Translations under genes and position numbers: made by a program
Shown here: one piece after another, positions 14,556 to 56,842 of the stretch
Layout: every line of letters begins with the position of its first letter
How positions within the stretch are numbered: position 1 is the stretch's first letter
DNA from: Clostridia bacterium
Lineage (GTDB): Bacteria > Bacillota > Clostridia > Oscillospirales > CAG-272
Direction of reading: 5' to 3'
Assembly: GCA_017463485.1 (NCBI GenBank)
Contig: JAFTPD010000007.1
Span: 1-64,000, forward strand
Length of the DNA stretch: 64,000 bases
Notes under the pieces: model-generated
Database searches by the model: none
Told to the model about the DNA's origin: nothing
What the model saw: only the letters and a program-made list of their open reading frames with translations

Positions 14556-14574
14556 AGCGTACTCCGTTTTTCTG

Positions 14575-36942: not shown

Positions 36943-36945
36943 TCA

Positions 36946-38077: not shown

Positions 38078-38111
38078 CTATTAAAAATATCTTCGGGAGG
38101 TTAAAAACTCA

Positions 38112-39305: not shown

Positions 39306-39363
39306 TTTCCTGCCTGCGGGCTTGAAATAAAGAAAGAAATAAAATTGAAAGGAAATAAAGATT

Positions 39364-40194: not shown

Positions 40195-40227
40195 TCCCCT
40201 GCCACTTAAATTCAGGTAGGTGATAAC

Positions 40228-41685: not shown

Positions 41686-41711
41686 CCACTTTTACAGAAA
41701 GGAAGATCACA

Positions 41712-42926: not shown

Positions 42927-42938
42927 GAGGTTACCGTT

Positions 42939-43271
42939 ATGGCAGCTCTCGGAATGATCGAAGTTTACGGATTCGCAACCTCTATCGTGGTTGCGGACGC
43001 GGTTGCAAAGGCCGCAGACGTTAAGGTAGTGGCTATCGACAGAAACAAGCCCGCAAATGCCGACCAGTGTGAAGTCCCCCTCGTTATGATAGTAAAATTC
43101 GAGGGCGATCCCGCCGCAGTTGAAGCGGCGCACGACGCAGGCGTTGCGGTTGCCAAGGAGAGAAACCTCTACATCACGTCAAAGATCAACTCTGGACTTG
43201 ATCCCTCGGTTGAATGGTTCGCACATCTCACCGCCACGGGCAGAGATAAGCTGCGCAACCCAAAGAAATAA
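42939..43271 (+). CDS. Microcompartment shell protein (BMC-H, divergent)
   Basis: 110 residues. ALGMIEVYGFATSIVVADAVAKAADVKVVAID is the BMC fold start. The pore-loop region reads NKPANADQCEVPLVMIVKFEGDP, a few residues longer than and unlike the [11 protein letters not shown] pore of its neighbours, and there is a C-terminal extension (SVEWFAHLTATGRDKLRNPKK). It likely forms a hexamer with a different pore or a special partner. First of four consecutive shell genes. Confidence 0.9.
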   Translation: MAALGMIEVYGFATSIVVADAVAKAADVKVVAIDRNKPANADQCEVPLVMIVKFEGDPAAVEAAHDAGVAVAKERNLYITSKINSGLDPSVEWFAHLTATGRDKLRNPKK

Positions 43272-43343
43272 AGTCTACATTATTAATTAAAAAACAAAAT
43301 CTAAAAATTAAAAAGTCGCAAAGCGACGAACAGGAGGATTATT

Positions 43344-43619
43344 ATGAGTGAAGCATTGGGAATGGTTGAGACCCGAGGTCTTGTAGCTGCTATCGAGGCA
43401 GCTGATGCTATGGTAAAGGCAGCAAACGTAACTCTTATCGGCTCCGAGAAGATCGGTAGCGGTCTCGTAAGCGTTATGGTTCGCGGTGACGTTGGAGCTG
43501 TTAAGGCTGCTGTTGAGGCAGGCGGCGCAGCTGCTTCCAGACTGGGCGAGGTTATCGCTACTCACGTTATCCCCAGACCCCACACCGACGTTAACAAGCT
43601 GCTCCCCACTCTCGGCTGA
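43344..43619 (+). CDS. Major hexameric shell protein (PduA/J type)
   Basis: 91 residues, canonical [35 protein letters not shown], pore-loop [25 protein letters not shown] and [18 protein letters not shown]. It tiles the facets of the shell and its central pore passes small polar metabolites such as propanediol. Nearly identical to the gene at 44040. Confidence 0.97.
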
Positions 43620-43658
43620 TAAAGTCAGATACTTAAACAAAGCAATCGGAGCATCACT

Positions 43659-43940
43659 ATGGAAAAGGCAATAGCTCTGCTCGAGGTTCAGGCAATGGTA
43701 ACTGCCATAGCAGGACTCGATGCAATGGTAAAAGCCGCCGACGTCAAGCTCATTCACGTTGAAAAAAGACTTGGCGGTAGGCTTGTAACCCTGGTGGTGG
43801 AGGGCTCGGTTTCGTCTGTTACTGCAGCGGCAGAAGCAGGTCGCGCCGCCGCCGCAGAGGTTGGAAACGTCAAGCTCTGCGAGGTAATCGCCCGCCCTCA
43901 CGAGGAGATCATGAAATTCTTAAAGACCGACGCCGTATAA
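43659..43940 (+). CDS. Hexameric shell protein (BMC-H)
   Basis: 93 residues. EKAIALLEVQAMVTAIAGLDAMVKAADVKLIHVEKRLGGRLVTLVVEG: same fold but different pore loop (KRLGGR) from the two PduA/J-type proteins on either side. The ending HEEIMKFLKTDAV is distinct. It would add a second pore chemistry to the shell. Confidence 0.95.
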   Translation: MEKAIALLEVQAMVTAIAGLDAMVKAADVKLIHVEKRLGGRLVTLVVEGSVSSVTAAAEAGRAAAAEVGNVKLCEVIARPHEEIMKFLKTDAV

Positions 43941-44039
43941 ATTCGGCTCGGCTCGCCCGCGGGGCGACAAAAGCACACAGTGTCATTGCCGACGGTCGGC
44001 TTTGATATAAATTGAAAAATTTTTTAGGAGGAAAATACA

Positions 44040-44312
44040 ATGAACGAAGCTCTTGGAATGGTTGAAACCAGAGGTCTTGTAGCTGCTATCGAGGCAGCTG
44101 ATGCTATGGTTAAGGCTGCAAACGTAACTCTTATCGGCTCCGAGAAGATCGGTAGCGGTCTCGTAAGCGTTATGGTTCGCGGCGACGTTGGCGCTGTTAA
44201 GGCTGCCGTTGAGGCAGGCGGCGCAGCTGCTTCCAGACTGGGTGAGGTTATCGCTACTCACGTTATTCCCAGACCTCACACCGACGTTGACAAGCTCCTT
44301 CCCACTATCTGA
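44040..44312 (+). CDS. Major hexameric shell protein (PduA/J type), second copy
   Basis: 90 residues, differing from the product of 43344-43619 at only about four positions (N for S at residue 2 and the C-terminal DKLLPTI). The DNA is also nearly identical, pointing to a recent duplication or gene conversion across the intervening shell gene. Strong ribosome site AGGAGG. Confidence 0.97.
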
Positions 44313-44333
44313 TAGGCTTGTCTTAACCTGTAT

Positions 44334-44420
44334 CGACGGATCTTTCCGTCGCAAGAGTACGGTTGCCGCGCCTTTGCGGCAACCGTACACCCCACAAATT
44401 TACGCCCGCAAGTGGGCGTA
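44334..44420 (+). promoter_or_regulatory. Three intercistronic hairpins between shell genes and pduL
   Basis: CGACGGA/CCGTCG (44334-44351), GTACGGTTGCCGC/GCGGCAACCGTAC (44357-44388, 13 perfect pairs) and TACGCCC/GGGCGTA (44401-44420). None is followed by a T run. They may stabilise the upstream mRNA or mark a processing point, allowing more shell protein than enzyme. Confidence 0.55.
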
Positions 44421-44503
44421 CCAAGGAATTTCTGCTTTTAACTTACAAGAAATCTCTCGGTTTGCTCATTTGTAAAGCTTTGTATAAAGGAAGGAATACG
44501 TTT

Positions 44504-45160
44504 ATGGAACTGTGCTCTAAAACAGTAGAAGAAATAGTAAAGCGCGTGCTTTCGGAATATTCGGAAGGTACGGACGGCGGCTCGCTTGAAATCCCCGTGG
44601 GAATCTCCAACCGCCACATCCATCTCAACCGCGAGGGCCTTGAAACCCTTTTCGGAAAAGGCTACGAGCTGACTCCCATCAAGGATCTCTCCCAGCCCGG
44701 TCAGTACGCCTGCAAGGAGCAGTTGACTCTCGTCGGACCATCTATGCGCGCCATTGAGGGCGTGCGCGTGCTTGGCCCTCTGCGCTCCAAAAATCAGGTG
44801 GAGATATCCGTTACCGACTCCTACGTGCTGAAGGTCAAGCCCCCCGTGCGCGAGTCGGGCAAGACCGAGGGCTCTGCTCCCATTACCATTATCGGTCCGA
44901 AGGGAACACTCGTTCTGAACGAGGGCTGCATTATCGCAAACCGCCACATTCACATGAGCCCCTCCGACGCGGCTAAATTCCATGTCACCGACGGTGAATA
45001 TATCGACGTTGACGCATTCAGCGGCACCAAGCGTACCCGCTGGTTTGACGTTCAGGTGCGCGTCCACGAGCAGTTCCGCCTCGAAATGCACGTGGATACC
45101 GACGACGCTAACGCAGTCGGCTTCAAAAACGGAAGCAAAGTCGTACCGGTTAAGAAGTGA
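44504..45160 (+). CDS. pduL: Phosphate propanoyltransferase PduL with N-terminal encapsulation peptide
   Basis: 218 residues; start at ATG 44504 after AAAGGAAGG. MELCSKTVEEIVKRVLSEY is an amphipathic targeting helix. The two beta-barrel domains each carry a zinc-binding motif: SNRHIHLN and ANRHIHMSPSDA. PduL exchanges CoA for phosphate on propionyl-CoA, releasing CoA inside the shell and propionyl-phosphate for AckA. R1 copy 3 follows its stop codon. Confidence 0.95.
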   Translation: MELCSKTVEEIVKRVLSEYSEGTDGGSLEIPVGISNRHIHLNREGLETLFGKGYELTPIKDLSQPGQYACKEQLTLVGPSMRAIEGVRVLGPLRSKNQVEISVTDSYVLKVKPPVRESGKTEGSAPITIIGPKGTLVLNEGCIIANRHIHMSPSDAAKFHVTDGEYIDVDAFSGTKRTRWFDVQVRVHEQFRLEMHVDTDDANAVGFKNGSKVVPVKK

Positions 45161-45170
45161 TTTGAACTGA

Positions 45171-45327
45171 TGTGGGGTTTCACCCCACACCCCACCAAAC
45201 TTTCTTGAAAGAAAGTTTGGATCAAAGAACTTTACTGCAAAAATTTCTTGTTTAGATTTGTTTACAATGGTGGCAACCGTAAACATCTCGATAACCCCCG
45301 TGGGCCCCTTACCCACTGCGGTATTAA
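45171..45327 (+). repeat. R1 repeat, copy 3, inside the microcompartment operon
   Basis: Begins 10 bp after the pduL stop. GTGGGG/CCCCAC, CAAACTTTC/GAAAGTTTG, TTGTTTAGATTTGTTTA block, and GTGGGC...ACCCAC. The rest of the 341-bp gap to the vertex gene is an AT-rich stretch with ATTCATT repeats and a CGCTTTTCGC/GCGAAAAGC hairpin at about 45413-45437, the usual end piece of R1 separated by an insertion. Confidence 0.85.
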
Positions 45328-45501
45328 TTCTTTATTATTTATTCATCATTCTTTGTTCTTTTGACCGCGGCGGGAGGAGCAAGCCCCCCCTACGGTAAGA
45401 AAATTAAAATGACGCTTTTCGCTTCGCGAAAAGCCTCCTCAATTATTCATTATTCATCATTCATTATTCACTATTCATTTATACTGAAAGGATGTACTTC
45501 C

Positions 45502-45765
45502 ATGCTCAAAGGAAAGGTAGTTGGAAACATTGTTTCCACCAACAAATTCGATTCTCTCAAGGGTTACAAGTTCCTTGAGATCCAGCTTATTGAGAACAAG
45601 ACTCTCACGGACGAGTTTATTATTGCCGTTGACCGCTCCATCAGCGCGGGAATCGGCGAGGAGGTTCTGGTCGCTACAGGCAGTGCGGCTCGCGTCGGAC
45701 TTGACGACGTGAACTCCCCTGTTGACGCGCTTGTAGTAGGAATTATCGATAAGATTCAGAATTAA
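45502..45765 (+). CDS. Pentameric vertex protein (BMC-P, EutN/CcmL/PduN type)
   Basis: 87 residues from ATG 45502. MLKGKVVGNIVSTNKFDSLKGYKFLEIQ, DRSISAGIGEEVLVATGSAAR and NSPVDALVVGIIDKI are the full EutN/CcmL fold. Five copies cap each of the twelve vertices and close the shell. A small protein is needed in few copies, consistent with its position behind R1 copy 3. Confidence 0.95.
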   Translation: MLKGKVVGNIVSTNKFDSLKGYKFLEIQLIENKTLTDEFIIAVDRSISAGIGEEVLVATGSAARVGLDDVNSPVDALVVGIIDKIQN

Positions 45766-45780
45766 CGGAGATTTATACCC

Positions 45781-47109
45781 ATGTTGAATACCAATGTAAA
45801 GCAGGCTCTGCAGACCCAGGGAGTCGTAGGTGCGGGTGGCGCAGGCTTCCCTACATACGCAAAGCTGGCTGACGGCGCGGAGATACTTCTCATCAACGCC
45901 GTCGAATGTGAGCCCCTGATGTATACCGACTTCACCCTCACCCGCGAAAAGCTGAGTGAAATAGTCGAGGGTATGCGTCTTATTATGGAGTACGCAAAAA
46001 TACCCACGGGACTGTTCGCCATAAAGGACTATCGCGCTCTGAAGCTTGGACTTGAGGACGGCGCGGCACTCGCCGATGGCATCACCGTCAAGCATATCCC
46101 CAACGTCTACCCTATGGGCGACGAAATAAATCTTATATATCAGGCAACGGGACGGCTTGTGCCCCCCGGAAATCTGCCTATCACCAAGGGCGTTATCGTA
46201 ATGAACGCCGAGACCGTTTATAACGCGCGCGAGGCTATTCTTTTCGGCACTCCCGTGACCGAGAAATGGCTGACCGTGGGCGGCGACGTCAAGGAGGCAT
46301 TCACTCTCCGCGCGCCCGTTGGAATGAGAATACGCGACGTGCTGAATTTTGTCGGTGTTGACGTACCCGAAACTCACGTAGTTATCGACGGTGGTCCTTC
46401 GATGGGTGCTATAAAGAATCCCGACGTTGACGTAGTTACGAAAACTACCAAGGCGTTGCTTATTCTGCCCAAGACCATTCCCGCTGTGCTGAACAAGCTC
46501 CGCACGCCCGAGGACAATCTCCGCCGCGCGGCATCCGTTTGCTGTCAGTGCACACGCTGTACGGATATGTGCCCGCGACATCTTCTCGGCTATCCTATTG
46601 AGCCGCACAAGATGGTTCGCTCCACCCTTTCGGCGGCGCAAATGACACCCGAGCTTGTAAAGACCGCCAGCCTGTGCTGCGGATGCGACATCTGCGAGAC
46701 CTTCGCTTGCTGTCAGGACATCTCGCCTATGGCTATTATGAAGGAATACAAGGCAATTCTTGCTAAAAATAAAATGCGCTACGTTGCCGGCGCGGACGAG
46801 GTATTCACCCCCAATCCCGACAGAGATTACCGCATGCTCTCCGCACAAAAGTGGAAGGAAGTCATGGGCGTTGCTAAATTTGACAAGCACACCACGCTCA
46901 TACCCGACCTGCTCCCCGCTCGCCGCGTGGAAATACGCACGTCCCAGCATATCGGCGCCCCCTCCATCCCCGTTGTCAAAGCGGGCGACACCGTCACCGC
47001 AGGTCAGCTTGTGGCTGAGGCGGCAAACGGTCTTTCCCTTCCCCAGTACGCATCCATTGCGGGCAAGGTCACTTACGTTGATGCAACCAAGATAATTATT
47101 GAAGTATAA
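45781..47109 (+). CDS. pduS: PduS-type flavin/Fe-S electron-transfer protein (RnfC-like)
   Basis: 442 residues. The N-terminal GVVGAGGAGFPTYAKL and ILLINAVECEPLMYTD are the NADH/FMN-binding part shared with RnfC and Nqo1. Two cysteine clusters follow: CCQCTRCTDMCPR and CCGCDICETFACC (two 4Fe-4S sites). The C-terminal barrel-like domain (IGAPSIPVVKAGDTV...GKVTYVDA) is also RnfC-like. PduS is thought to move electrons across the shell with PduT, or to recycle cofactors inside. Sits directly before pduT, as in Pdu operons. Confidence 0.95.
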   Translation: MLNTNVKQALQTQGVVGAGGAGFPTYAKLADGAEILLINAVECEPLMYTDFTLTREKLSEIVEGMRLIMEYAKIPTGLFAIKDYRALKLGLEDGAALADGITVKHIPNVYPMGDEINLIYQATGRLVPPGNLPITKGVIVMNAETVYNAREAILFGTPVTEKWLTVGGDVKEAFTLRAPVGMRIRDVLNFVGVDVPETHVVIDGGPSMGAIKNPDVDVVTKTTKALLILPKTIPAVLNKLRTPEDNLRRAASVCCQCTRCTDMCPRHLLGYPIEPHKMVRSTLSAAQMTPELVKTASLCCGCDICETFACCQDISPMAIMKEYKAILAKNKMRYVAGADEVFTPNPDRDYRMLSAQKWKEVMGVAKFDKHTTLIPDLLPARRVEIRTSQHIGAPSIPVVKAGDTVTAGQLVAEAANGLSLPQYASIAGKVTYVDATKIIIEV

Positions 47110-47119
47110 GAGGTAGAAA

Positions 47120-47665
47120 ATGTATCAGTCAGTTGGTGTAATTGAAATAAAGAGCATTGCAAAGGGCATTGAGGCTACCGACGACGCGCTCAAAAGCGCA
47201 GGCATCCGCCTCATTTCCGCTCACACGTCCTGCCCCGGAAAGTATGAGATAATTCTGACGGGCGCAGTTGCGGACGTTACAGCCGCAGTTGAGCACGTTA
47301 AGAGCCGCTTTGACGAAAAGCTTATCGACTCCTGCATTATCGGACGAATCGACAATCAGGTGATCGAAGCACTTTTCGGCACGCAGGCAACCGCAAAGCA
47401 CGGCTCACTCGGAATTATCGAGGCGTACTCCGCCGCATCCACCATCAAGGCGGCAGATATCGCCGTCAAGACCGCCAAGGTCGCCATTGTCGAGCTTCGC
47501 ATTTCGCGCGGCATGGGCGGCAAGGGCATGGTGCTGGTAGTCGGCGACGTTGGCGACGTTACTGCTGCTGTTGAAGCAGGCGCACGCCACGCACAGGATC
47601 AGGGACTTTTCTGCAACAGCGCAGTTATTCCCGCGCCCCACGAGGAGCTTTGGGCACAAATCTGA
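47120..47665 (+). CDS. pduT: Trimeric shell protein PduT with Fe-S pore cysteine
   Basis: 181 residues, two BMC domains in tandem (QSVGVIEIKSIAKGIEATDDALKSAG... and GSLGIIEAYSAASTIKAADIAVKTA...). Cys38 in HTSCPGKYEI is at the place where three cysteines of the PduT trimer hold a 4Fe-4S cluster in the pore, making it the likely electron conduit for PduS. Length and motif match PduT closely. Confidence 0.95.
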   Translation: MYQSVGVIEIKSIAKGIEATDDALKSAGIRLISAHTSCPGKYEIILTGAVADVTAAVEHVKSRFDEKLIDSCIIGRIDNQVIEALFGTQATAKHGSLGIIEAYSAASTIKAADIAVKTAKVAIVELRISRGMGGKGMVLVVGDVGDVTAAVEAGARHAQDQGLFCNSAVIPAPHEELWAQI

Positions 47666-47713
47666 TCGTGTCTTGGTATGGCACAAAAATCCTTATTTGA
47701 CAAGGAGTAATAT

Positions 47714-50245
47714 ATGTCGGAAATTAAATTTAACATACAAAAAAGTCCTCGAATTGACAGGCTCGTGCATCATTTGTACGAGAACATGCCGGTCATTGAA
47801 GCTGACCGCGCCGAGCTTGTCACCGAGAGCTACAAGCAGACGGAGCATTTGCCGATAGTCAGACGCCGCTCTGCCGCGCTGATGCACATTCTTAAAAATA
47901 TTCCTATCGTCATTCGTCCCGACGAGCTTATCGTTGGCTCTAACTCCATAGCTCCCCGCGGATGTCAGACCTTCCCCGAATATTCTTACGAATGGCTGGC
48001 AAAGGAATACGACACTATAGCAACTCGCGAGGCTGACCCCTTCTACATTTCACCCGAAACGGTAAGACGTCTTGAGGCTGTCCACCCCTATTGGAAGGGC
48101 AAGACCACATCCGAGCTGGCGGCTTCCTCCATGGACGAAAAGGTGCTTGACGTATTCCTGCATCACGGCATATTCACGGTCGGCAACTATTTCTACAATG
48201 CGGTAGGCCACGTTTGTGTAAATTACGAGAAGATCATCAAGTACGGCTTTGAGCAAATAATCGAAGAGGCAAAGGAGACGCGTGAGGCGCTCCAAAGCGG
48301 ACAGGGCGACTACATCAACCGCCGTAATTTCCTTGATGCTGTTATAGAAAGCTGTGAGGCTGTCTGCGTTTACGCACGCCGTTATTCCGAGCTTGCACGC
48401 AAGGAAGCGGCGGCTGCCACCGACCCTCAGCGCCGAGCTGAATTGCTCAAAATTGCCGACGTTTGCGCTCGCGTCCCCGAAAAGGGCGCGCGCAGCTTCC
48501 ACGAGGCTTGCCAGTCCTTCTGGTTCGTTCAGCAGCTTCTTCAGATGGAGTCCAGCGGACATTCCATCTCTCCCGGTCGCTTCGACCAATATATGTATCC
48601 CTTCTTCAAGGCTGACCTTGACCGCGGCATCGTGACTTACGAATCCGCGCAGGAGCTTATCGACTGCATCTGGGTAAAGCTCAACGACCTCAACAAGGTA
48701 CGTGACGCGGCTTCTGCCGAGGGCTTTGCAGGCTACGGTCTGTTCCAAAACCTTATCGTAGGCGGTCAGAACGAGCACGGACTTGACGTTACAAACGACC
48801 TGTCCTACATGTGCATGGAGGCACAGCTCCACGTCCGTCTGCCTCAGCCTTCACTTTCCATCCGCGTGTGGAACTGCACGCCTCACTCTCTGCTCATCAA
48901 GGCGGCTTCGGTCACCAGAGAGGGACTTGGCGTACCCGCATTCTACAACGACGAGGTTATTATTCCTTCAATGCTGTCCAGAGGATATACCATTGAGGAC
49001 GCAAGGAACTACTGCATTATCGGTTGCGTTGAGCCTCAGGCTCCCGCAAAGACGGACGGCTGGCACGACGCGGCGTTCTTCAATATGCTCCGCCCTCTCG
49101 AGCTTGTATTTTCAAGCGGTGTTGACAAGGGCGAGCAGATAGGTCCGCGCACGCCCAACGTGCTGTCTATGACCAAGTTTGAGGAATTCTACGACGCTTA
49201 CCGCACACAGCAGGAAGCAATGATCGCTATGATGGTTCAGGCGAACAACGCAATTGATATCGCTCACGCTACCCGCTCCCCCCTGCCCCTCGAATCCTGC
49301 CTTATCGACGATTGCATCAAGAACGGCAAGAGCGTTCAGGAGGGTGGCGCACACTACAACTTCACTGGCCCTCAGGGCTTTGGTATTGCAAACGTAGCAG
49401 ACGGTCTTGCGGCTGTCCGCAAGCTGGTATTTGAGGATCGCTCCGTGTCCATGGCAGAGCTGAAGGAAGCGCTTGAAAACAACTTCGGCAAGGGACGCAC
49501 CGAAAAGAAATCCACCGAGCTTACCGTTCTCGCCGCGCAGATGCTTGACAAGCAGGGCGTGGAGGTCAACGAGAGCCACATTGTAAATATCTATAACGGA
49601 TTCCGCAACGCCTCCTCTGTTTCGGACGAGAAAAAGGCGCAGTATCAAAGAATTCTCGACCTTATCGATTCCGTTCCTAAATACGGAAACGACCTCTACG
49701 AAACGGATATGTTCGCCCGCGAGATAGGTCAGACGTACACCAAGCCCTTGCTTCAGTACACCAATCCCAGAGGCGGTATCTTCCATGCGGGACTTTATCC
49801 CGTTTCGGCAAACGTGCCGCTTGGCTATGACACGGGCGCAACTCCAGACGGTCGACTTGCAAACACTCCCATCGCCGACGGCGTAGGTCCTATGTCGGGC
49901 AGGGACGTAAAGGGTCCGACTGCGACGGCGAACTCTGTTTCCCGTCTTGACCTTGGCGACGCGTCCAACGGAACTCTGCTCAATCAGAAATTCCACCCCT
50001 CTGCTCTTGCAGGCGAGCAGGGACTTGAAAAATTCGTAGCTTATCTGCGCGGATTCTTCGACAGAAAGGGTATGCACGTTCAGTACAACGTCGTATCGAA
50101 AGAGACCCTCCTTGATGCGCAAAAGCATCCCGAAAACTACAAAACGCTGGTCGTCCGCGTGGCAGGTTACAGCGCGCTGTTCACTACCCTCAGCCGCTCG
50201 CTTCAGGATGACATCATCAACCGCACCGAGCAGGGCGGACTGTAA
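47714..50245 (+). CDS. Glycyl radical diol dehydratase (B12-independent propanediol dehydratase type)
   Basis: 843 residues. The radical loop VRVAGYSALFTTLSRSLQDDI places the glycyl radical at Gly818; the active-site loop CIIGCVEPQ gives Cys438 and Glu440. SSGHSISPGRFDQYMYPF is shared with glycerol/propanediol dehydratases and choline lyase. The aldolase, PduP and absence of any choline-specific partner favour 1,2-propanediol (to propionaldehyde) over choline. Active only anaerobically after radical generation by the next gene product. No clear targeting peptide, although the N terminus differs from soluble pyruvate formate-lyase. Confidence 0.9.
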   Translation: MSEIKFNIQKSPRIDRLVHHLYENMPVIEADRAELVTESYKQTEHLPIVRRRSAALMHILKNIPIVIRPDELIVGSNSIAPRGCQTFPEYSYEWLAKEYDTIATREADPFYISPETVRRLEAVHPYWKGKTTSELAASSMDEKVLDVFLHHGIFTVGNYFYNAVGHVCVNYEKIIKYGFEQIIEEAKETREALQSGQGDYINRRNFLDAVIESCEAVCVYARRYSELARKEAAAATDPQRRAELLKIADVCARVPEKGARSFHEACQSFWFVQQLLQMESSGHSISPGRFDQYMYPFFKADLDRGIVTYESAQELIDCIWVKLNDLNKVRDAASAEGFAGYGLFQNLIVGGQNEHGLDVTNDLSYMCMEAQLHVRLPQPSLSIRVWNCTPHSLLIKAASVTREGLGVPAFYNDEVIIPSMLSRGYTIEDARNYCIIGCVEPQAPAKTDGWHDAAFFNMLRPLELVFSSGVDKGEQIGPRTPNVLSMTKFEEFYDAYRTQQEAMIAMMVQANNAIDIAHATRSPLPLESCLIDDCIKNGKSVQEGGAHYNFTGPQGFGIANVADGLAAVRKLVFEDRSVSMAELKEALENNFGKGRTEKKSTELTVLAAQMLDKQGVEVNESHIVNIYNGFRNASSVSDEKKAQYQRILDLIDSVPKYGNDLYETDMFAREIGQTYTKPLLQYTNPRGGIFHAGLYPVSANVPLGYDTGATPDGRLANTPIADGVGPMSGRDVKGPTATANSVSRLDLGDASNGTLLNQKFHPSALAGEQGLEKFVAYLRGFFDRKGMHVQYNVVSKETLLDAQKHPENYKTLVVRVAGYSALFTTLSRSLQDDIINRTEQGGL

Positions 50246-50255
50246 TTCAAGGCAT

Positions 50256-50286
50256 CATACAAGGCGGACATCCTCCGCCTTGTATG
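50256..50286 (+). promoter_or_regulatory. Hairpin between dehydratase and activase genes
   Basis: Perfect 13-bp stem CATACAAGGCGGA / TCCGCCTTGTATG, followed by GAAAAATTT rather than a T run. Suited to protecting the dehydratase mRNA end or lowering readthrough, so that a little activase is made per dehydratase, as in pfl operons. Confidence 0.65.
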
Positions 50287-50369
50287 AAAAATTTGACGGC
50301 GAAGGAGCTTGCACGGCAGGCCGCGAAAGTTCCTTTGCCATCAAGCAAATTTTAGGAAAAGGAGTACCT

Positions 50370-51179
50370 ATGGCAACCGACAGCATTTACGACGTTACGG
50401 GCAGAATATTCGATATTCAGCGGTTTTCCATGCATGACGGTCCGGGAATACGGTCTATCGTATTTTTCAAGGGCTGTTACCTGCGTTGCCGCTGGTGCTG
50501 CAATCCCGAATCGCAGGAATACGGTATTCAACAGCTCACCTTGGGCGGCAAGACCAAAGCTGTCGGCCGCGACGTGACTGTCCGCGAGGTGCTTGAAGAG
50601 CTGGAGCAGGACAGAATGTACTACATTCGCTCGGGTGGCGGCGTGACTCTTTCGGGCGGCGAGGCTATGGCTCAGCCCGACTTTGCTTACGCTCTGCTCA
50701 AAGCGTGCCGCTCGGCAGGACTTGATACTGCTATTGAAACCACCGCTTATGCTGACCGCGACGTGGTGGAGAGGCTGATTCCTTACATTGACCATATTCT
50801 TATGGACATCAAGCATATAAATTCGCAAAAGCATATCGAATTTACCTCCCGTCCCAACGAAAAGATCCTTGCAAACGCGCAGTATATCGCGCGCTATTGC
50901 GCACAGCACTCAAACGATCTTACCATCCGCGTGCCCGTAGTTCCCACGTTCAACGACACGGCGGCGGAGATCGCGGATATTACGAGATTTGCAAACGAAT
51001 TACCCGGTGTTCGTCAGCTTCATTTGCTGCCGTATCACCGCCTTGGACAGGACAAATACGCGGGGATCGGACGCGAGTATTCGCTCTCCGAGATAACTCC
51101 CCCCTCAAATGAAAAGATGCACGAGCTTGCCGAGGCGGCTCGCGCGGTCAGCTCCCTGCACGTTCAGGTTGGCGGCTGA
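50370..51179 (+). CDS. Glycyl radical enzyme activase (radical SAM), short form
   Basis: 269 residues from ATG 50370 (GGAAAAGGAG upstream). FFKGCYLRCRWCCNP holds the CxxxCxxC motif (Cys36, 40, 43). The dehydratase and choline-lyase activases usually carry a ferredoxin-like insert with two further 4Fe-4S clusters; here only TLGGKTKAVGRDVTVRE separates the motif from the GGGVTLSGGEAMAQ core, so the protein is of the pyruvate formate-lyase activase size. It installs the glycyl radical using SAM. Confidence 0.92.
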   Translation: MATDSIYDVTGRIFDIQRFSMHDGPGIRSIVFFKGCYLRCRWCCNPESQEYGIQQLTLGGKTKAVGRDVTVREVLEELEQDRMYYIRSGGGVTLSGGEAMAQPDFAYALLKACRSAGLDTAIETTAYADRDVVERLIPYIDHILMDIKHINSQKHIEFTSRPNEKILANAQYIARYCAQHSNDLTIRVPVVPTFNDTAAEIADITRFANELPGVRQLHLLPYHRLGQDKYAGIGREYSLSEITPPSNEKMHELAEAARAVSSLHVQVGG

Positions 51180-51193
51180 CGAAAGGAGTCTTT

Positions 51194-51559
51194 ATGGATT
51201 TTGAAATGAAAGATAAAATGCGAATAGTTCAGGAGCTTGTGCCGGGTCGGCAGATAACCCTGCTCCATATTATCGCAAACCCTGATCCCATGCTTTATCA
51301 GAAGCTCGGACTTGACCCCAAGCTGGATTACAGCCACGCGGCTATCGGTATCCTTACCGTCAGCCCCGCAGAAACTGCTGTAATCACTGCCGATATTGCT
51401 ATGAAAACATCCGGCGCTGACCTCGGTTTCGTGGACAGATTCTCGGGTACTCTCATCATCACAGGCAAGGTCGCCGAGGTCGAATCCGCCTTTAACGCCA
51501 TCGCCGAATATTTCAAAAACACCCTCAAGTTCACCGTGTGTGACGTGACAAGAACTTGA
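51194..51559 (+). CDS. pduU: Shell protein PduU/EutS type (circularly permuted BMC)
   Basis: 121 residues. RIVQELVPGRQITLLHIIANP is the N-terminal strand extension that makes a beta-barrel cap over the pore in PduU/EutS; HAAIGILTVSPAETAVITADIAMKTSG follows the permuted BMC order. It is often paired with the PduV/EutP GTPase, which is the next gene here. Confidence 0.95.
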   Translation: MDFEMKDKMRIVQELVPGRQITLLHIIANPDPMLYQKLGLDPKLDYSHAAIGILTVSPAETAVITADIAMKTSGADLGFVDRFSGTLIITGKVAEVESAFNAIAEYFKNTLKFTVCDVTRT

Positions 51560-51564
51560 TTATA

Positions 51565-51842
51565 CGCGGGACTCTGTCCCGCACCCTGCAAGCCCTTTCT
51601 TGAAAGAAAGGGCTTGACCCCAAAGAACTTTTCTGACAAATTTTCTTGTTTAGATTTGTTTAGATGGTTACAGCCAAAAACATCTCTATAATTTTTGCGG
51701 CGTTTCGGGCGAACACAGTTCGCCCCTACGTGGTGAATTAGATGCTTTCGGTTGTTTTCAGGCAAAGATTTTTTACCGTAGGGGCGACCTGCGGTCGCCC
51801 GTTTCAATGAAATGAAGCCTTTTGCTAAGCGAAAAGAATCAT
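51565..51842 (+). repeat. R1 repeat, copy 4, interrupted by a MITE
   Basis: Starts just after the pduU stop. Hairpin GCGGGAC/GTCCCGC replaces GTGGGG/CCCCAC of other copies (pairing kept). AGCCCTTTC/GAAAGGGCT and the AGATG/CATCT block follow. Past CATCTCTATAA the copy is broken by the small element at 51707-51801. The final piece reappears as CCTTTTGCTAAGCGAAAAG (51829-51839 region). The 456-bp gap between pduU and eutP is thus entirely repeat sequence. Confidence 0.75.
51707..51801. mobile_element. MITE-like insertion (~95 bp) with 25-bp inverted ends
   Basis: Left end GGGCGAACACAGTTCGCCCC and right end GGGGCGACCTGCGGTCGCCC are inverted and themselves palindromic; both carry the CTACG flank inside. 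CGTTTC occurs directly at both borders (51701-51706 and 51800-51805), consistent with a target duplication. No coding capacity. It sits inside R1 copy 4. Confidence 0.6.
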
Positions 51843-51849
51843 CAATTAT

Positions 51850-51992
51850 TCTCGCGCCGTGCCTCGACGACATTTGGGCAACGCCCAAATGGGTCATTCT
51901 GAGCGAGCGCAGCGAGTCGAACCCGTACGGCGCGAAGCGGAATCTCGGAGAGGCAAATATCATTCCGCAAAGCGTGGTGTGACTCTCAACTC
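51850..51992. repeat. REP-like palindromes upstream of eutP
   Basis: Contains ATTTGGGC/GCCCAAAT, GAGCGAGCGCAGCGAGTC, which belongs to a widespread bacterial palindrome (GGTCATTCTGAGCG...), an outer CGCGCCGT/ACGGCGCG pair, and a diverged third copy of the short repeat seen at 7247 and 18384 (GCAAAGCGTGGTGTGACTC). Confidence 0.55.
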
Positions 51993-52015
51993 TCAACTAT
52001 TTTCGGGAGTAATAT

Positions 52016-52471
52016 ATGAAAAAGTTAATGCTTATCGGTCGCGTTGCCGCTGGCAAGACAACCCTTACCCAGGCGCTTCGCGGCGAGCAAATACACTACT
52101 GCAAAACGCAGTATATCAATTATTCAAACACCATAATCGACACCCCGGGTGAGTACACCGAGGTCAACAAGCTGGGAGCGGCGCTTGCGATATACGCATA
52201 CGAAGCGGATATCGTGGGTATCGTCATCAGCGCGGACGAGCCTTTTTGCGTGTTCCCCCCGAACATCACCTGCATGGTCAACCGCGAGGTGATCGGCATT
52301 GTGTCGGGAATAGACAAGCCCTCTGCAAACGTCGAGCAAGCCACGCGGTGGCTGAAGCTGTGCGGTTGCACAAAGATATTTTACATCAGCTCTTACACGG
52401 GCGAGGGCCTTTCGGACATTATTGAATATCTGCGCGAGGATGGCGACGCCCCCGACGCTCTTCCCGTATAA
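52016..52471 (+). CDS. EutP/PduV family small GTPase-like protein
   Basis: 151 residues. P-loop GRVAAGKTTL at 8-17 and switch-like IIDTPGEYTE at about 41-50; the guanine-specificity motif is not the standard NKxD (VSGIDKPSANV instead), as usual for EutP/PduV. PduV is associated with the outside of the shell, through PduU, and with filament-like movement of microcompartments, while EutP has been reported as an acetate kinase-like enzyme. Its neighbours, pduU before and parA after, favour a positioning role. Confidence 0.92.
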   Translation: MKKLMLIGRVAAGKTTLTQALRGEQIHYCKTQYINYSNTIIDTPGEYTEVNKLGAALAIYAYEADIVGIVISADEPFCVFPPNITCMVNREVIGIVSGIDKPSANVEQATRWLKLCGCTKIFYISSYTGEGLSDIIEYLREDGDAPDALPV

Positions 52472-52495
52472 CAAATAAGGTAAGGAGTTTTATTT

Positions 52496-53287
52496 ATGAG
52501 TAAAACACGGGTCATTTGCTTTGCAAACAACAAGGGAGGAAGCGGAAAATCCACTACCTGCTCCAATATCGGTTACAGCTTGACTACGCTCGGATACCGA
52601 GTTCTTTTGATCGACGGAGATATGCAGATGAACCTTACTCTGTCCTTCTTTGACGACGAGAAATCGTTGGAATACGCTAAGAACGGCAAGAATCTTTACA
52701 CTGCCGTCAAGGAACAGCGCGACCTTACCCCATACATTCTTAACACCGACTACGAAAATCTCGACATCATTCCCTCCTCCACGCTGATGAGCGGAATTGA
52801 ATTCGACCTGTTCACCAAGTGGCAGCGCGAGTTTATCCTCAAAAGCGGACTTGCATCCGTCAAGGAGAGCGGAGTGTATGACTACATACTTATCGACGCG
52901 CCGCCCACGCTCGGCTGTTGGGTGATAAATATTATGTGCGCCTCCGACTTTATCGTTATTCCCGTTGAGGCATCTCCTTGGGGACTTTTCGGACTTGCAA
53001 ATATGTTTGAATTCTACGAGCAGGTAAAGCGCATAGCTCCCTCTCTTGAATTGATGGGAATTGCCGTCACCAAGGCAAACGAACGCAAGAACTACTTCAA
53101 GCAAACGCTGGAAAACCTCGGCGGACTTGACAACGTGCGCCTGTTCAAGTCCTACATTCGCACCGACAGCTCTATCGAATGGGCGCAGGACAACAGCAAG
53201 CCCGTTATGGTCTACAAACGGTCCAGCCGTTCAGCACAAGAATATCTTGAAATGACGAAGGAGGTCATTGAATATGCCAATAGGTAA
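52496..53287 (+). CDS. ParA/MinD-family ATPase, candidate microcompartment-positioning protein (McdA-like)
   Basis: 263 residues. Deviant Walker A NNKGGSGKST with the signature Lys13, Walker A' LLIDGDMQMNLT and Walker B YILIDAPPTLG give a dimerising, DNA-gliding ATPase. PVEASPWGLFGLANMFEF is typical of chromosomal ParA-type partition ATPases. It lies 24 bp after eutP, in the same operon, and overlaps the next gene by 14 bp. No parB-like gene or origin is present. The McdA proteins that space carboxysomes on the nucleoid have the same design, so I infer the same job for this catabolic shell. Confidence 0.85.
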   Translation: MSKTRVICFANNKGGSGKSTTCSNIGYSLTTLGYRVLLIDGDMQMNLTLSFFDDEKSLEYAKNGKNLYTAVKEQRDLTPYILNTDYENLDIIPSSTLMSGIEFDLFTKWQREFILKSGLASVKESGVYDYILIDAPPTLGCWVINIMCASDFIVIPVEASPWGLFGLANMFEFYEQVKRIAPSLELMGIAVTKANERKNYFKQTLENLGGLDNVRLFKSYIRTDSSIEWAQDNSKPVMVYKRSSRSAQEYLEMTKEVIEYANR

Positions 53288-53627
53288 GGACAGCATCCAG
53301 AAGCGCGTGGCAAAGACCGCGCCCGAAGCAAAGACCGAGGTCGTGACCGAGAAGGTCACTCCCCCCGCAGAGACAAAGCCCGCCACTGCAAAAAAGACTT
53401 CCGCAACAACGAAAAAGACGACAACCTCCACCGCGAAGAAATCTACGTCGTCTGCGGCTAAAAAGCCTGCGGCAAAGAAGCCCGCGACCGCGAAAAAGGT
53501 AGTCGAGAGCACCGCCGTTATCGCAAACATCTCCCCCGAGGTAGTAGAAAAGGTAACGGGACACAAGGAAGGCGCACAGCCCACCGTTATCGGCATCGGC
53601 AAAAAGCTCCCCGTGCATCTTCTTTAA
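53274..53627 (+). CDS. Small basic low-complexity protein, candidate McdB-like partner
   Basis: 117 residues from ATG 53274, overlapping parA. Three parts are visible: a short conserved-looking head MPIGKDSIQKRVAK, a disordered Lys/Ala/Thr/Ser tract (about 12-76, with AAKKPAAKKPATAKK) and a tail ANISPEVVEKVTGHKEG...GIGKKLPVHLL. McdB proteins are small, mostly disordered, charged adaptor proteins that link McdA to the shell. They are poorly conserved, so similarity here rests on layout and gene order, not on sequence. An alternative is a nucleic-acid-binding histone-like tail protein. A terminator follows at once. Confidence 0.6.
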   Translation: MPIGKDSIQKRVAKTAPEAKTEVVTEKVTPPAETKPATAKKTSATTKKTTTSTAKKSTSSAAKKPAAKKPATAKKVVESTAVIANISPEVVEKVTGHKEGAQPTVIGIGKKLPVHLL

Positions 53628-53631
53628 TATT

Positions 53632-53664
53632 AAAAGGAACGGATCGAAAAATCCGTTCCTTTTT
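53632..53664 (+). terminator. Terminator of the microcompartment operon
   Basis: Stem AAAAGGAACGGAT / ATCCGTTCCTTTT with a 6-nt loop followed by T residues, 5 bp after the McdB-like stop. It places parA and its partner firmly inside the operon. Confidence 0.9.
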
Positions 53665-53744
53665 GTATATTCTCCGACGTTTGTGGGAAAACTCGCTCTC
53701 AGGGCGGTTCTTACTCCTTACATAAAAATTTGGAGGATATTATA

Positions 53745-54353
53745 ATGAAAAAACTTTTGCCCGCGTTTATTGTTTTTATGTCGCTGATACTTATTTTAGT
53801 ATATTTTCCCGTCCACGGCGAGGAAAAAATATACGACACCGTTCTGCGACTTCACGTTATCGCCAACTCGGACAGCGATGAGGATCAGGCGCTCAAGCTT
53901 AAGGTACGCGATGCCGTTGTTCGTCAAAGCGAGGTTCTGCTCGACGGCTGCACCACTCGCGACCAAGCCGCAGAGCGCATCCAAAAGCACCGCGACTCTA
54001 TTCTTTTCGCGGCGGAAAGCGTTATTCGAAACGAAGGGTACAACTACCCCGTTACCGTAACTCTCGGACTTGAGGATTACCCCGAAAAGACTTATGATAG
54101 CTGCTGTTTTCCGTCGGGCGAATATCTGTCCCTGCGCGTATGCATTGGCGAAGCGGCAGGCGAGAATTGGTGGTGCGTGCTCTTCCCGCCACTTTGTCTG
54201 TCAGCCGCAAAAGCAGAGCGAAAAAGTAACGAGGACGCTTTCGTCGCCGTAGGACTCAACAAGGACCAGTACGGCATCATCACCCAAACCGAGAAAACCA
54301 CCTACAAGGTCAGATTCAAGATCCTTGAGGTCTTTCAAGGCACATTTGGGTAA
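53745..54353 (+). CDS. spoIIR: Stage II sporulation protein R
   Basis: 202 residues from ATG 53745 (TGGAGGATATTA upstream). A signal/anchor helix (LLPAFIVFMSLILILVYF) then IYDTVLRLHVIANSDSDEDQALKLKVRDAVV, the SpoIIR signature. SpoIIR is secreted from the forespore and triggers SpoIIGA-dependent activation of sigma-E in the mother cell; normally expressed from a sigma-F promoter. I could not see a clear sigma-F promoter in the 115 bp upstream. The gene marks the organism as a spore former. Confidence 0.95.
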   Translation: MKKLLPAFIVFMSLILILVYFPVHGEEKIYDTVLRLHVIANSDSDEDQALKLKVRDAVVRQSEVLLDGCTTRDQAAERIQKHRDSILFAAESVIRNEGYNYPVTVTLGLEDYPEKTYDSCCFPSGEYLSLRVCIGEAAGENWWCVLFPPLCLSAAKAERKSNEDAFVAVGLNKDQYGIITQTEKTTYKVRFKILEVFQGTFG

Positions 54354-54432
54354 GAAGTAGCGGTATGCGTGACGTCGCGAGCATTCTCCGCCTGCGCAAT
54401 TCCCATTTTCACCTTTCAATTTAAAAAACCGG

Positions 54433-54461
54433 TTGACAATCCGCCTCAAAAATGTTATACT
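54433..54461 (+). promoter_or_regulatory. Consensus sigma-A promoter
   Basis: TTGACA, 17 bp, TATACT, 29 bp before the reductase start. Confidence 0.75.
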
Positions 54462-54490
54462 CAAACCATAACGAATATGAGGTGTCATTT

Positions 54491-55207
54491 ATGAAAAAGG
54501 TTCTTATCAGCGGCGGCTCACGCGGTATTGGCGCGGCTTGCGTAACGGCTTTTTGCCGCGCAGGCTTTGATGTCGCATTTATATACAACACGAGCGACGA
54601 ATGTGCGAAGGCACTCGAAGCCACCACGGGCGCACACGTGATCAAAGCGGATATTTCACTCCCCGAGCAGGCGGCTCGCGCTATTGGCGAAGCCGAAAAA
54701 CTTCTTGGAGGCATTGACGTTCTCGTAAACAACGCAGGCGTTTCACACATTGGCTTGTTTACGGAAATGACAAGCGAGGAATGGCGGCGAATTATCGACA
54801 CCAATCTGTCGGGTGCGTTCTATTTATGCCGCGGCGCGGCGGGCGGAATGATACGCCGCAAATGGGGGCGCATCATAAATATCGGCTCTATGTGGGGCAA
54901 GGTCGGCGCATCCTGCGAGGTTGCGTATTCCGCATCAAAGGCAGGGCTTCGCGGACTCACGCAGGCAATGGCGAAGGAGCTTGCACCGTCGGGGATAACC
55001 GTCAACTGCATTGAACCGGGCGTTATCGACACCCAAATGAACGCCGCACTCCCCGATGACGTAAAGCGAGCTTTGGCAGAGGAAACTCCCGTCGGGCGCT
55101 TTGGAACGCCGGAGGAGGTCGCAGCGGCGGTGATGTTTTTAGCATCCGACTCTGCCGCCTTCATCACAGGACAGTGCCTCGGTGTGGACGGCGGTATGGC
55201 AATATAA
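54491..55207 (+). CDS. ymfI: Short-chain dehydrogenase, YmfI-like (EF-P 5-aminopentanone reductase type)
   Basis: 238 residues from ATG 54491. GGSRGIGAA (NAD(P) loop), NNAGVS, catalytic YSASK with Ser in NIGSMWG, and the C-terminal ITGQCLGVDGGM. The stretch SMWGKVGASCEVAYSASKAGL is the characteristic signature of YmfI, which reduces the 5-aminopentanone group on translation factor EF-P in Bacillota; plain FabG proteins lack the WGxVGASCEV phrase. No efp gene is in the window. R1 copy 5 follows. Confidence 0.75.
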   Translation: MKKVLISGGSRGIGAACVTAFCRAGFDVAFIYNTSDECAKALEATTGAHVIKADISLPEQAARAIGEAEKLLGGIDVLVNNAGVSHIGLFTEMTSEEWRRIIDTNLSGAFYLCRGAAGGMIRRKWGRIINIGSMWGKVGASCEVAYSASKAGLRGLTQAMAKELAPSGITVNCIEPGVIDTQMNAALPDDVKRALAEETPVGRFGTPEEVAAAVMFLASDSAAFITGQCLGVDGGMAI

Positions 55208-55228
55208 AAGGCTTGATTTATTATTATA

Positions 55229-55393
55229 TGTGGGGTTTCACCCCACACCCCACAAGCCCTTTCTTGGAAGAAAGGGCTTGACCCCAAAGAACTTTACTAC
55301 AAAAATTTCTTGTTTAGATTTGTTAAGATGGTTACAACCAAAAACATCTCTATAACCCTCGCGAGGTCCTTACCCACCGCGATATTTAATTAC
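55229..55393 (+). repeat. R1 repeat, copy 5
   Basis: Starts 22 bp after the reductase stop. GTGGGG/CCCCAC, AGCCCTTTC/GAAAGGGCT, AGATG/CATCT, and CCTCGCGAGG-type region in place of CCCCGTGGG, then CCCACCGCGATATTTAAT. Confidence 0.85.
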
Positions 55394-55399
55394 AAAACG

Positions 55400-55443
55400 A
55401 AGAAGGCGCTGTGTTCACACCGTGGCACAGCTCCTTCTTTTTC
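55400..55443. terminator. Bidirectional terminator
   Basis: AAGAAGGCGCTGTG / CACAGCTCCTTCTT (one mismatch) followed by T residues on +, and located directly after the - strand Xre gene. Confidence 0.75.
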
Positions 55444-55686
55444 TTATCTGATCTCCTGCTCAAGTTGTTCAAACTCGGGAGTATTGAAAAATTCCGTCAA
55501 AGTTATTCCAAAACCGTCGCACATCATTTTTATGGTTACGATACCCGGATTTACACTTTTTCCGTACAAGATGTTCTTAACTGACGATGGCGGAACGGCA
55601 GACTCCATAGCTAACTTGTGGATCGACATTCTCTTTTCGCCAAGCAACTGTAATATTCTGTTTTTTACCACTGTATAGGTGTCCAT
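55444..55686 (-). CDS. Xre-family helix-turn-helix regulator
   Basis: 80 residues, a bare HTH domain: RILQLLGEKRMSIHKLAMESAVPPSSVKNILYGKSVNPGIVTIKMMCDGFGITLTEFF. It likely represses its own divergent neighbourhood, since the intergenic region has three GGCTATA-type half-sites around the promoter of the membrane protein gene. Confidence 0.9.
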   Translation of the reverse strand: MDTYTVVKNRILQLLGEKRMSIHKLAMESAVPPSSVKNILYGKSVNPGIVTIKMMCDGFGITLTEFFNTPEFEQLEQEIR

Positions 55687-55717
55687 TCTATCCCTCCTTA
55701 AAAATATTTGGTCTAAT

Positions 55718-55771
55718 TATAGCCCAAAACTCTTGACAATGCGGGCTATATATGATACAATATAGGCTATA
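55718..55771 (+). promoter_or_regulatory. Promoter with three repeated half-sites (Xre operator candidate)
   Basis: TTGACA (55733), 17 bp, TACAAT (55756). Half-sites TATAGCCC (55718-55725, inverted), GGGCTATA (55743-55750) and GGCTATA (55765-55771) flank and overlap the promoter; the two direct ones are about 21 bp apart, i.e. on the same face of the helix. Confidence 0.65.
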
Positions 55772-55801
55772 AATAGACTTTTTATTAAGAAGGACAAAAA
55801 C

Positions 55802-56842
55802 ATGAAAAGAACCAAGCTTCAAACCATAGGCTATATTTTTCTTCATACCGTCGTTATGCAGTTGCTTGTAATAGCAATTTTTGCTTTTGTGGCATACATT
55901 GCATATTTTGGCGTTGCAAAATATAATGACGGCATTCTTTCAATCGTTGGCGTGCTCGCTTTTCTCGCAATGATGTTTTCTTATTTGTGCATATCAATAT
56001 TGAAAAAAAGCTACGGCGTTTCAGTATTTGCCAAAACCCGCGGCACGTTCAACGGCACTGCTTTTAAGAGCGATCCTATAAAAACTGTCGAATATTCCGT
56101 AGGTAGACGGGATTCGTTTACGGGAAGACGCAAGATTTACGTGCGCGAGCGCGAGGAAAAAGGCGGAGGCTGCGCGATAGTGTTTCTTGGTATTCCAGCC
56201 ATTGTGACGGGGGTGACAGGAATATTTAAATTTGTTTTGGAGAGCGTCCGCGTGCTTTTGTCCGACGACAGACAGGAGGCGTGGGAGGAAAGCCGCGAAT
56301 ATTATTTTGAAAAAATGGAGGCAGAAGGAAAGAGGTCTTTCTTCAAGGTGCCGATAATATGCGCTGTGGTTCTCGTTATAGCTATGGTTATATCCTTCCC
56401 CGTAGTAGCAATATACGAATACAAATACAGCACCGACAGAATTGATTTCAGCATCATGAGCAAGGAGAACGTAACGGATCAGTACGGAAGGGAATTCGTG
56501 GTGTTCGGCGGCAAGCTGAAAAACACGGGTGATGCCGAAATAGAAATGATAGAAGGATACATGGTCTTTCTGGATGAAAGCGGCGAGGAGCTTTACAGAG
56601 GGAAGCTTAAATTCAAGGCACTTTTTTCAACCTCGGCAGATTACGATGAATTTTTAAGCAAGGACGAGGAATGGGAAACCGAGGTGTCCCTATCCGTGGC
56701 AGAGAGCGATATTATTGACCAAATGAAGTATATGGATCTTTCGGATATAAAGATCGTTTTTGAGATAACAGAGATACATTACGCGGGAGATATGTTTATC
56801 GATTTTCCCAACACTCCCGTTACAGTCAAGCCGCTCGGCTGA
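55802..56842 (+). CDS. Hypothetical membrane protein
   Basis: 346 residues. Two helices near the N terminus (about 10-37 and 44-66), a polar domain, a hydrophobic segment near 120-140, and a strong helix at about 180-205 followed by an outside domain (DRIDFSIMSKENVTDQYGREFVVFGGKLKNTGDAEIEMIEGYMVFLDESG) that resembles immunoglobulin-like FxxxGxLKN folds found in Bacillota lipoproteins. Function unknown. Probably controlled by the divergent Xre regulator. Confidence 0.7.
   Translation: MKRTKLQTIGYIFLHTVVMQLLVIAIFAFVAYIAYFGVAKYNDGILSIVGVLAFLAMMFSYLCISILKKSYGVSVFAKTRGTFNGTAFKSDPIKTVEYSVGRRDSFTGRRKIYVREREEKGGGCAIVFLGIPAIVTGVTGIFKFVLESVRVLLSDDRQEAWEESREYYFEKMEAEGKRSFFKVPIICAVVLVIAMVISFPVVAIYEYKYSTDRIDFSIMSKENVTDQYGREFVVFGGKLKNTGDAEIEMIEGYMVFLDESGEELYRGKLKFKALFSTSADYDEFLSKDEEWETEVSLSVAESDIIDQMKYMDLSDIKIVFEITEIHYAGDMFIDFPNTPVTVKPLG

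Follow-up and report, generated by a model that had tools for sequence, protein, structure and literature searches.

A ParA-type ATPase and its small overlapping partner as a probable positioning module of a GRM5-type fucose/rhamnose microcompartment

Introduction

The McdAB systems of alpha and beta carboxysomes are among the closest described counterparts of the gene pair discussed here; they combine a ParA-type ATPase with a small partner of low complexity that has a charged N-terminus and an invariant C-terminal Trp. McdAB-like genes have also been reported in the loci of other bacterial microcompartments (BMC), PDU and GRM among them (PMC8262871, section 10; PMC11321042), and ParA or McdAB-like genes are mentioned for some BMC operons in PMC13052382. 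McdAB-like pairs in GRM loci are thus already in print, and the pair described below is not the first. The McdB-like proteins of GRM and PDU loci have a C-terminal Tyr or Phe (PMC11321042), and for both ParB and McdB the contact with the ATPase is reported to run through a short basic/aliphatic motif at the N-terminus (PMC12462528, PMC12204374). In addition, the occurrence of ParA and PduV in some BMC operons was noted in PMC4207490, and a role in PDU positioning had been proposed for PduV (PMC8262871). ParA-type positioning is not general, because the Pdu compartments of Salmonella are unaffected by McdAB, ParA and MinD (PMC12866334). A literature search by titles and abstract openings, with supplements and most subscription journals excluded, returned no ParB-derived compartment adaptor, no ParA in rhamnose operons and no genome-wide tie between ParA and GRM5.

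The operon and its terminal gene pair

The window, a stretch of 64,000 nucleotides from the 1.74 Mb, 90.76% complete genome of a Clostridia bacterium (Oscillospirales, CAG-272), harbors on its forward strand an operon that spans about 38.1 to 53.66 kb and that begins with acetate kinase and ends with ParA and a small partner. Its first genes (38112-42926, +) encode acetate kinase, class II aldolase, aldehyde dehydrogenase and alcohol dehydrogenase (PF00871, PF00596, PF00171, PF08240 with PF00107), and are followed by four BMC-H shell genes (42939-44312, +; PF00936 matches at 42945, 43353, 43668 and 44049). PTAC/PduL, EutN and an RnfC-like PduS protein (45781-47109, +; Complex1_51K and RnfC_N domains) are also present. 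The later part is constructed from a PduT-type shell protein with two BMC domains (47120-47665, +; PF00936 twice), a glycyl radical enzyme (GRE; 47714-50245, +; PF02901, PF01228, TIGR01774), its activating enzyme (50325-51179, +; PF04055, TIGR02494), a PduU/EutS-type BMC-H protein (51194-51559, +; PF00936 1.5e-12), an EutP/PduV GTPase (52016-52471, +; PF10662 1.3e-49), ParA and the partner. A terminator-like hairpin with a 13-pair stem (53632-53663, +) ends the operon, and a promoter-like site at 38027-38055 before ackA is one of the two best of the region, both taken from consensus scans that found 26 terminator-like sites against 20.7 in shuffled sequence and 22 promoter-like sites against 14.2.

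The window therefore holds the class II aldolase, the alcohol dehydrogenase, the GRE with its activase and the PduS and PduT homologues by which a GRM5 locus is defined. Since aldolase, GRE, PduS and PduT together match the published GRM5 type, which is devoted to fucose and rhamnose breakdown (PMC4207490, PMC6325248), the operon is, judged by its gene content, of the GRM5 type, i.e. for fuculose/rhamnulose-phosphate degradation, and not the plain propanediol compartment that an earlier note on this DNA had taken it for.

Several further observations were made around the operon. Two of the BMC-H genes (43344-43619 and 44040-44312) encode near-identical proteins with equal PF00936 scores and are separated by a different BMC-H gene, which looks like the outcome of a recent duplication or gene conversion. 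The 456 bp gap between pduU and eutP (51560-52015) contains a 25-nt inverted repeat (51706-51730 / 51777-51801), and the segment TCATTCTGAGCGAGCGCAGCGAGTCGAA within this gap resembles a dispersed element, present as a single copy in the window. No Rfam match was obtained in 36000-56000. Upstream in the window lie a bacterial alpha-L-rhamnosidase (22009-23568, +; PF17389 2.1e-65) and an FGGY-family sugar kinase (12993-14642, -; PF02782 2.2e-31), which fit a rhamnose or fucose diet.

The ParA-type ATPase (52496-53287, +), 263 aa in length, starts 24 bp downstream of the EutP/PduV ORF, carries the deviant Walker A motif NNKGGSGKST with its Lys13, and matches Pfam AAA_31 at 2.8e-50. The partner, a putative ParA-to-shell adaptor of 117 aa with a net charge of +14 (53274-53627, +), opens with the ATG at 53274 and overlaps parA by 14 bp (53274-53287). 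These positions bear out the earlier description of a Lys13 ATPase that overlaps a basic low-complexity ORF between eutP, which ends at 52471, and the operon terminator. The same holds for the statement that no parB is visible at the locus: the sole PF02195 (ParB_N) match of the genome (G000:C6:118786-119076) lies in the ORF after the only second ParA detected at E <= 0.001 (G000:C6:117901-118644), which is 33% identical to the window ParA. A general repeat scan of 51500-54500, made independently of the known parS consensus, detected no repeat array and only two two-copy families inside genes. In database comparisons, PHROGs labels the window ParA a 'ParA-like partition protein', the PADLOC matches are weak ATPase matches, and among solved structures McdA is matched at 3.3e-12, more weakly than another ParA (2.4e-31).

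Conserved ends of the partner

The window partner begins with the head MPIGKDSIQKRV and ends with the tail GIGKKLPVHLL. Its head MPIGKDSIQKRVAK (53274-53315, +) is a putative ParA-binding motif, which is followed by a low-complexity Lys/Ala/Thr/Pro tract delimited by composition (linker; 53370-53498, +), a short conserved segment VIANISPEVVEKVTG (53517-53561, +; with similar ones in L025, L026, L028, L029, L031 and L033 among other near relatives), and the tail itself (53592-53624, +), a putative shell-binding peptide. The VIANISPEVVEKVTG segment resembles a short helix and is possibly akin to encapsulation peptides; a similar segment, VIANPDPQVVEKL, is found elsewhere in the partner of a second subclade. 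With 22 Lys, 18 Thr, 17 Ala, no Trp, Tyr or Phe and a GRAVY of -0.46, the Lys/Ala/Thr/Pro-rich protein may, judged by its composition, be disordered as McdB is, and Pfam gives nothing for it at E up to 0.1.

Used as a query against 291 genomes of the class, the partner found only itself, and ParA was for this reason adopted as the survey query. Species genomes scanned with three ParAs gave at least 416 relatives, the best 80 of the 416 (63-76% identity) were kept, and weaker relatives accordingly lie outside the view taken here. A partner ORF overlaps parA in 59 of these 80 loci, by 10-26 bp and by exactly 14 bp in 46. Since such an ORF, with both ends retained, recurs so regularly after ParA, the partner is a conserved gene and not a chance ORF. 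Its length varies from 67 to 202 aa in the 59 loci, and the partner of G543 (L199) has 176 aa; the head follows the consensus M-x-[IVL]-G-K-x-[SA]-[IL] and the tail P-x-[YHFW]-L-[LM]. Part of this conservation exists by construction, since the partners were picked with a head-and-tail pattern: G4 of the head, and Pro at -5 and Leu at -2 of the tail, are selected positions and occur in all 59. The free positions are K5, found in 56 of 59, and the tail residue at -3, which is Tyr in 41, His in 9, Trp in 5 and Phe in 4. A separate, pattern-free listing of ORFs near the parA stop revealed no missed parA-overlapping small ORF of partner type.

The first 14 residues of 60 partners, the window included, contain on average 3.05 Lys/Arg and 0.58 Asp/Glu. 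Of the 59 partners, 50 have an aromatic residue (Trp, Tyr or Phe) within their final five positions, among them 37 of the 42 that are BMC-adjacent and 13 of the remaining 17, and Asp or Glu occupies -7 or -8 in 47 of 59. The window tail instead has KK there and His at -3, and its near relatives L030, L033 and L035 are likewise devoid of any aromatic residue. Overall, head and tail are conserved around variable linkers, and the Lys tract is not the conserved part.

The ParA clade and its tie to microcompartments

The 80 ParAs, those of G077 and G256 and the window protein constitute one clade of 83 rows (100/96), in which K13, K18, D40, D134 and R245 are at least 97% conserved. In the tree, whose rows include no carboxysome McdA and several of whose deeper forks are weak (30-84), this clade is separate from seven Soj-like ParAs, from ParA L014 and from two Peptostreptococcales ParAs of a plasmid collection; the latter two are the nearest outgroups, and the annotated one is followed by a ParB-family gene. 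All of 5000 plasmid records counted are below 60% identity to ParA (best among the matches listed, 41.6%), which, together with the position outside the Soj clade, speaks against a grouping of the ATPase with Soj or plasmid ParAs. A mobile or viral origin of ParA was considered and rejected, as 161 matching phage records are all below 60% identity (best among the matches listed, 36.4%) and none of the 131 viral-contig sequences that match the pattern is a relative. In a class survey of 391 genomes, 10 match ParA at E <= 1e-40, three of them above 60% identity, the source genome included.

The earlier note had proposed a search of other microcompartment loci for ParA with a small overlapping gene. 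At least two BMC genes were found upstream of ParA by tblastn with the window operon proteins in 43 of the 80 loci; by a distance rule, EutP lies directly upstream of parA in 36 and the order pduU-eutP-parA occurs in 34, each with the partner (34/34). The other 37 loci lack BMC genes within up to 10 kb on each side, eight of them having less than 5 kb of upstream sequence. An overlapping partner is present in 42 of 43 BMC-adjacent loci versus 17 of 37 others.

The tie of the ParA clade to microcompartments is strong, and it extends to genomes in which the two are not seen side by side. PF00936 was detected in 49 of 49 genomes searched (37 non-adjacent, G077, G256 and 10 BMC-adjacent, with 33 other BMC-adjacent genomes left out of this search), and the class background is 114 of 391 genomes. 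A sample of 200 genomes from the family of G404 contained ParA at E <= 1e-70 in 23 and PF00936 in 58; BMC shell genes were present in 23 of 23 ParA-bearing versus 35 of 177 ParA-free genomes (Fisher 1.0e-14, a value that overstates independence because the genomes are related). Among the BMC places listed, ParA and BMC genes lie within about 30 kb in 11 of the 23; in another 11 they are apart, either on different contigs, which in drafts may be neighbors, or about 467 kb away in G577, and G476, which has a single BMC match, is placed in neither group. These latter 11 genomes, all with BMC genes, still differ from the 35 of 177 (Fisher 6.9e-08). Moreover, BMC adjacency changes at least six times, by gain or loss, on the ParA tree, the starred branches alone forcing three changes. 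As a control, no ORF above 150 aa with KGGxGK was found in 34 control BMC regions.

The type of compartment was assessed by a GRM5-like test that includes aldolase, alcohol dehydrogenase, PduS and BMC-H, with GRE not required. Among 49 BMC regions from 48 ParA-bearing genomes (L187 is the second locus of G609), 42 regions pass, corresponding to 43 genomes when the second contig of G398 is included; the regions of G418, G426, G077 and G459 end at contig ends but agree with the GRM5-like type, and G514 fails as judged from its regions L180 and L190. A GRE with 50% identity or more accompanies 21 of the 42 passing regions, and a GRE is found in the available sequence of 28 of the 43 BMC-adjacent loci, so that the name GRM5 is certain for part of them only and the remaining passing regions are better called GRM5-like. 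Within the sampled family, the test is passed by 18 of 23 ParA-bearing genomes and failed by G514, three are truncated at contig borders and G476 is left unclassed; 16 of 34 ParA-free, BMC-bearing genomes (35 minus G464, which was left out) also pass, 10 of them with GRE, and about half of the GRM5-like genomes in this sample thus have no ParA. As 43 of 48 ParA-bearing genomes and also 16 of 34 ParA-free ones pass, ParA nearly implies a GRM5-like compartment, while the reverse does not hold.

ParB_N-bearing relatives and the origin of the partner

In four partners of 150-207 aa (G256, L063, L081 and L102), a ParB_N domain above the Pfam cut-off is situated between the same head and tail, and a profile of these four matches Noc, ParB and Spo0J structures, the best at 3.5e-12. 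Owing to this arrangement, the adaptor probably descends from ParB. Pfam shows no DNA-binding domain in these four partners or in that of the window. On the ParA tree the four rows stand apart: L063 is sister of L041 (100/99) and L102 of L088 (98/99), L041 and L088 both having plain partners free of ParB_N, with G256 standing outermost in the clade. Repeated loss of ParB_N after descent from ParB is the simplest reading, and independent gain is possible; the weak deeper forks (30-84) keep repeated loss at the level of an inference. The idea that 'TGHK' in the window partner is a remnant of the G256 ParB_N motif TGHKR was rejected, because near relatives vary at that position.

The pair can now be set against the known systems. 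It is like McdAB in having a ParA-type ATPase with a deviant Walker A motif adjoining a small low-complexity partner and a BMC operon, and in the charged N-terminus, here MPIGKDSIQKRVAK. The differences, drawn from described features, are the tail, where the window partner ends LPVHLL with His and the family has mostly Tyr in contrast with the C-terminal Trp of carboxysome McdB (Trp at -3 in 5 of 59), and the existence of relatives with ParB_N. The McdB-like proteins of PDU and GRM loci (PMC8262871, PMC11321042) share the setting and carry Tyr or Phe among their final five residues, where Trp, Tyr or Phe stands in most partners here; they differ from the window member, which lacks any aromatic residue, and neither ParB descent nor a genome-wide tie appears in the available parts of the published account. 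Compared by description, they and the window partner are very possibly the same family. With Soj-Spo0J ParABS the pair has in common the ParA fold, the N-terminal aliphatic/basic head, which resembles the published ParB/McdB motif, and ParB_N in some partners, but the ParA clade is separate, the partners examined have no DNA-binding domain of the kind a ParB partner carries, and it is the other ParA of the genome that precedes a ParB_N protein. PduV/EutP and PduU are direct cassette neighbors of ParA but belong to different protein families.

The earlier idea of an McdAB-like system agrees with the ATPase and the charged N-terminus, and is modified by the window partner's tail and by the 21 of 80 ParAs that have no adjacent partner. 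As to its proposal of a new McdB type, such pairs are already in print for GRM and PDU loci, and the partner looks ParB-derived.

Partner-less ParAs and extended shell proteins

No partner was found in the available sequence around 21 of the 80 ParAs, and 20 of these directly precede a similar, AraC-like ORF of about 320-340 aa (L061:10001-14624; L052, L056, L058, L060, L064, L068, L070, L073, L074, L076, L077, L080, L082, L083, L087, L090, L094, L096, L104); the 20 ParAs constitute one clade (99/93). In L061 (G404, Mediterraneibacter glycyrrhizinilyticus), which L080 resembles at its start, the ORF after ParA has AraC domains by Pfam and is followed by an FGGY kinase and L-rhamnose isomerase, which is the pathway feeding GRM5. 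A search of the 22 partner-less genomes (the 21 and G077) with a weak low-complexity model, which recovered three positive controls, revealed no partner.

The BMC regions of partner-less ParA genomes (L113, L110, L115, L136 and others) encode BMC-H proteins with a basic, Lys/Ala/Thr-rich N-terminal extension of 48-94 aa, most of which carry a block like TTAKAPAKTVQRVK; other GRM5-like loci also encode extended BMC-H proteins, there lacking such a block. When the comparison is restricted to genomes with a BMC-H extended at its N-terminus by 30 aa or more, the strict motif K[AS]P[AGS]KTxxRV is present in 20 of the 24 that have a partner-less ParA and in none of the 12 ParA-free or the 9 partner-bearing ones, with near variants in G403 and G407 and none in G077 and G433. 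This distribution may reflect one event, because the carriers placed on the tree share one ParA clade. The motif offers a lead for a possible direct contact between ParA and the shell. Transplantation of the partner head onto the shell protein was rejected: the head position matrix does not pick out the shell motif (-6.6, p 0.69 in G404), its lowest shuffle p values being 0.013 in G403 (at another place), 0.020 in G256 and 0.050 in the ParA-free control G560, and kinship of head and motif is consequently unsupported.

Proposed function and alternatives

It is probable, in our judgment, that ParA and its partner form a module that positions the fucose/rhamnose microcompartment of GRM5 type. Gene order, conservation and the genome-level tie are observed, and from them we infer every physical contact and movement as follows. 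ParA, of the active type by its Walker A motif, would sit on the nucleoid as an ATP-bound dimer, as is known of ParA biology. The basic/aliphatic head of the partner would dock on this dimer and trigger ATP hydrolysis, as suggested by work on ParB and McdB N-termini, and its C-terminal P-x-[YHFW]-L-[LM] would bind the shell, as conservation and the C-terminal aromatic rule of McdB suggest. By analogy with the diffusion ratchet of McdAB, many adaptors on each shell would ride the ParA gradient, and the shells would be spaced and inherited. The adaptor probably arose from a ParB-like ancestor by loss of the DNA-binding part and, in most lineages, of ParB_N, with the ParA-binding head retained.

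The pair might serve the same compartment otherwise, by tethering the shell or operon to the nucleoid or tuning expression or assembly, with the partner as a histone H1-type DNA binder; weak, below-cut-off HC2 histone-like matches of two partners (L038, L042) and the 20 ParAs directly before an AraC-like ORF speak for this reading, which we nevertheless hold to be unlikely, as conservation resides in the head and tail and not in the Lys tract, the ParB_N partners keep both ends and differ in the middle, and the ATPase residues of ParA are conserved. Much less probability attaches to a genomic hitchhiker, a cassette that travels with the operon and has an unrelated job. Neighbors within an operon need no common function, and about half of the sampled GRM5-like genomes do without ParA, but the 11 genomes in which ParA is not seen linked to the listed BMC places all possess BMC genes, and adjacency changed repeatedly on the ParA tree.

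Ordinary ParAB-parS partition, serving either the chromosome or what was once a mobile element and now sits inside the operon, is very improbable. The nearest outgroups come from a plasmid collection, one with a ParB-family gene behind it, and some partners of the clade still bear ParB_N; set against this are the Pfam-negative result for DNA-binding domains in the window partner and the four ParB_N partners, the locus free of a repeat array, the lack of a viral relative or of any plasmid record above 60% identity among the 5000 counted, and the tie of ParA to BMC genomes.

Within the positioning module that we favor, a more tentative scenario, which we consider possible but rather doubtful, is that a ParB became an organelle adaptor with a ParA-docking head and a shell-binding tail, its ParB_N-bearing intermediates being extant, and that in the AraC/rhamnose clade the adaptor is gone and an orphan ParA acts directly on the basic N-terminal motif K-[AS]-P-x-K-T-x-x-R-V of BMC-H. 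If this is true, one ParA clade holds three stages on the way from DNA segregation to organelle positioning.

Significance

The clade offers a testable system, with the cultured members Blautia caecimuris, Diplocloster agilis and Faecalicatena orotica among its loci, a defined adaptor head and tail, and natural partner-less variants. Meanwhile, its relatives suggest how a DNA-segregation machine may have turned to organelle cargo in gut bacteria.
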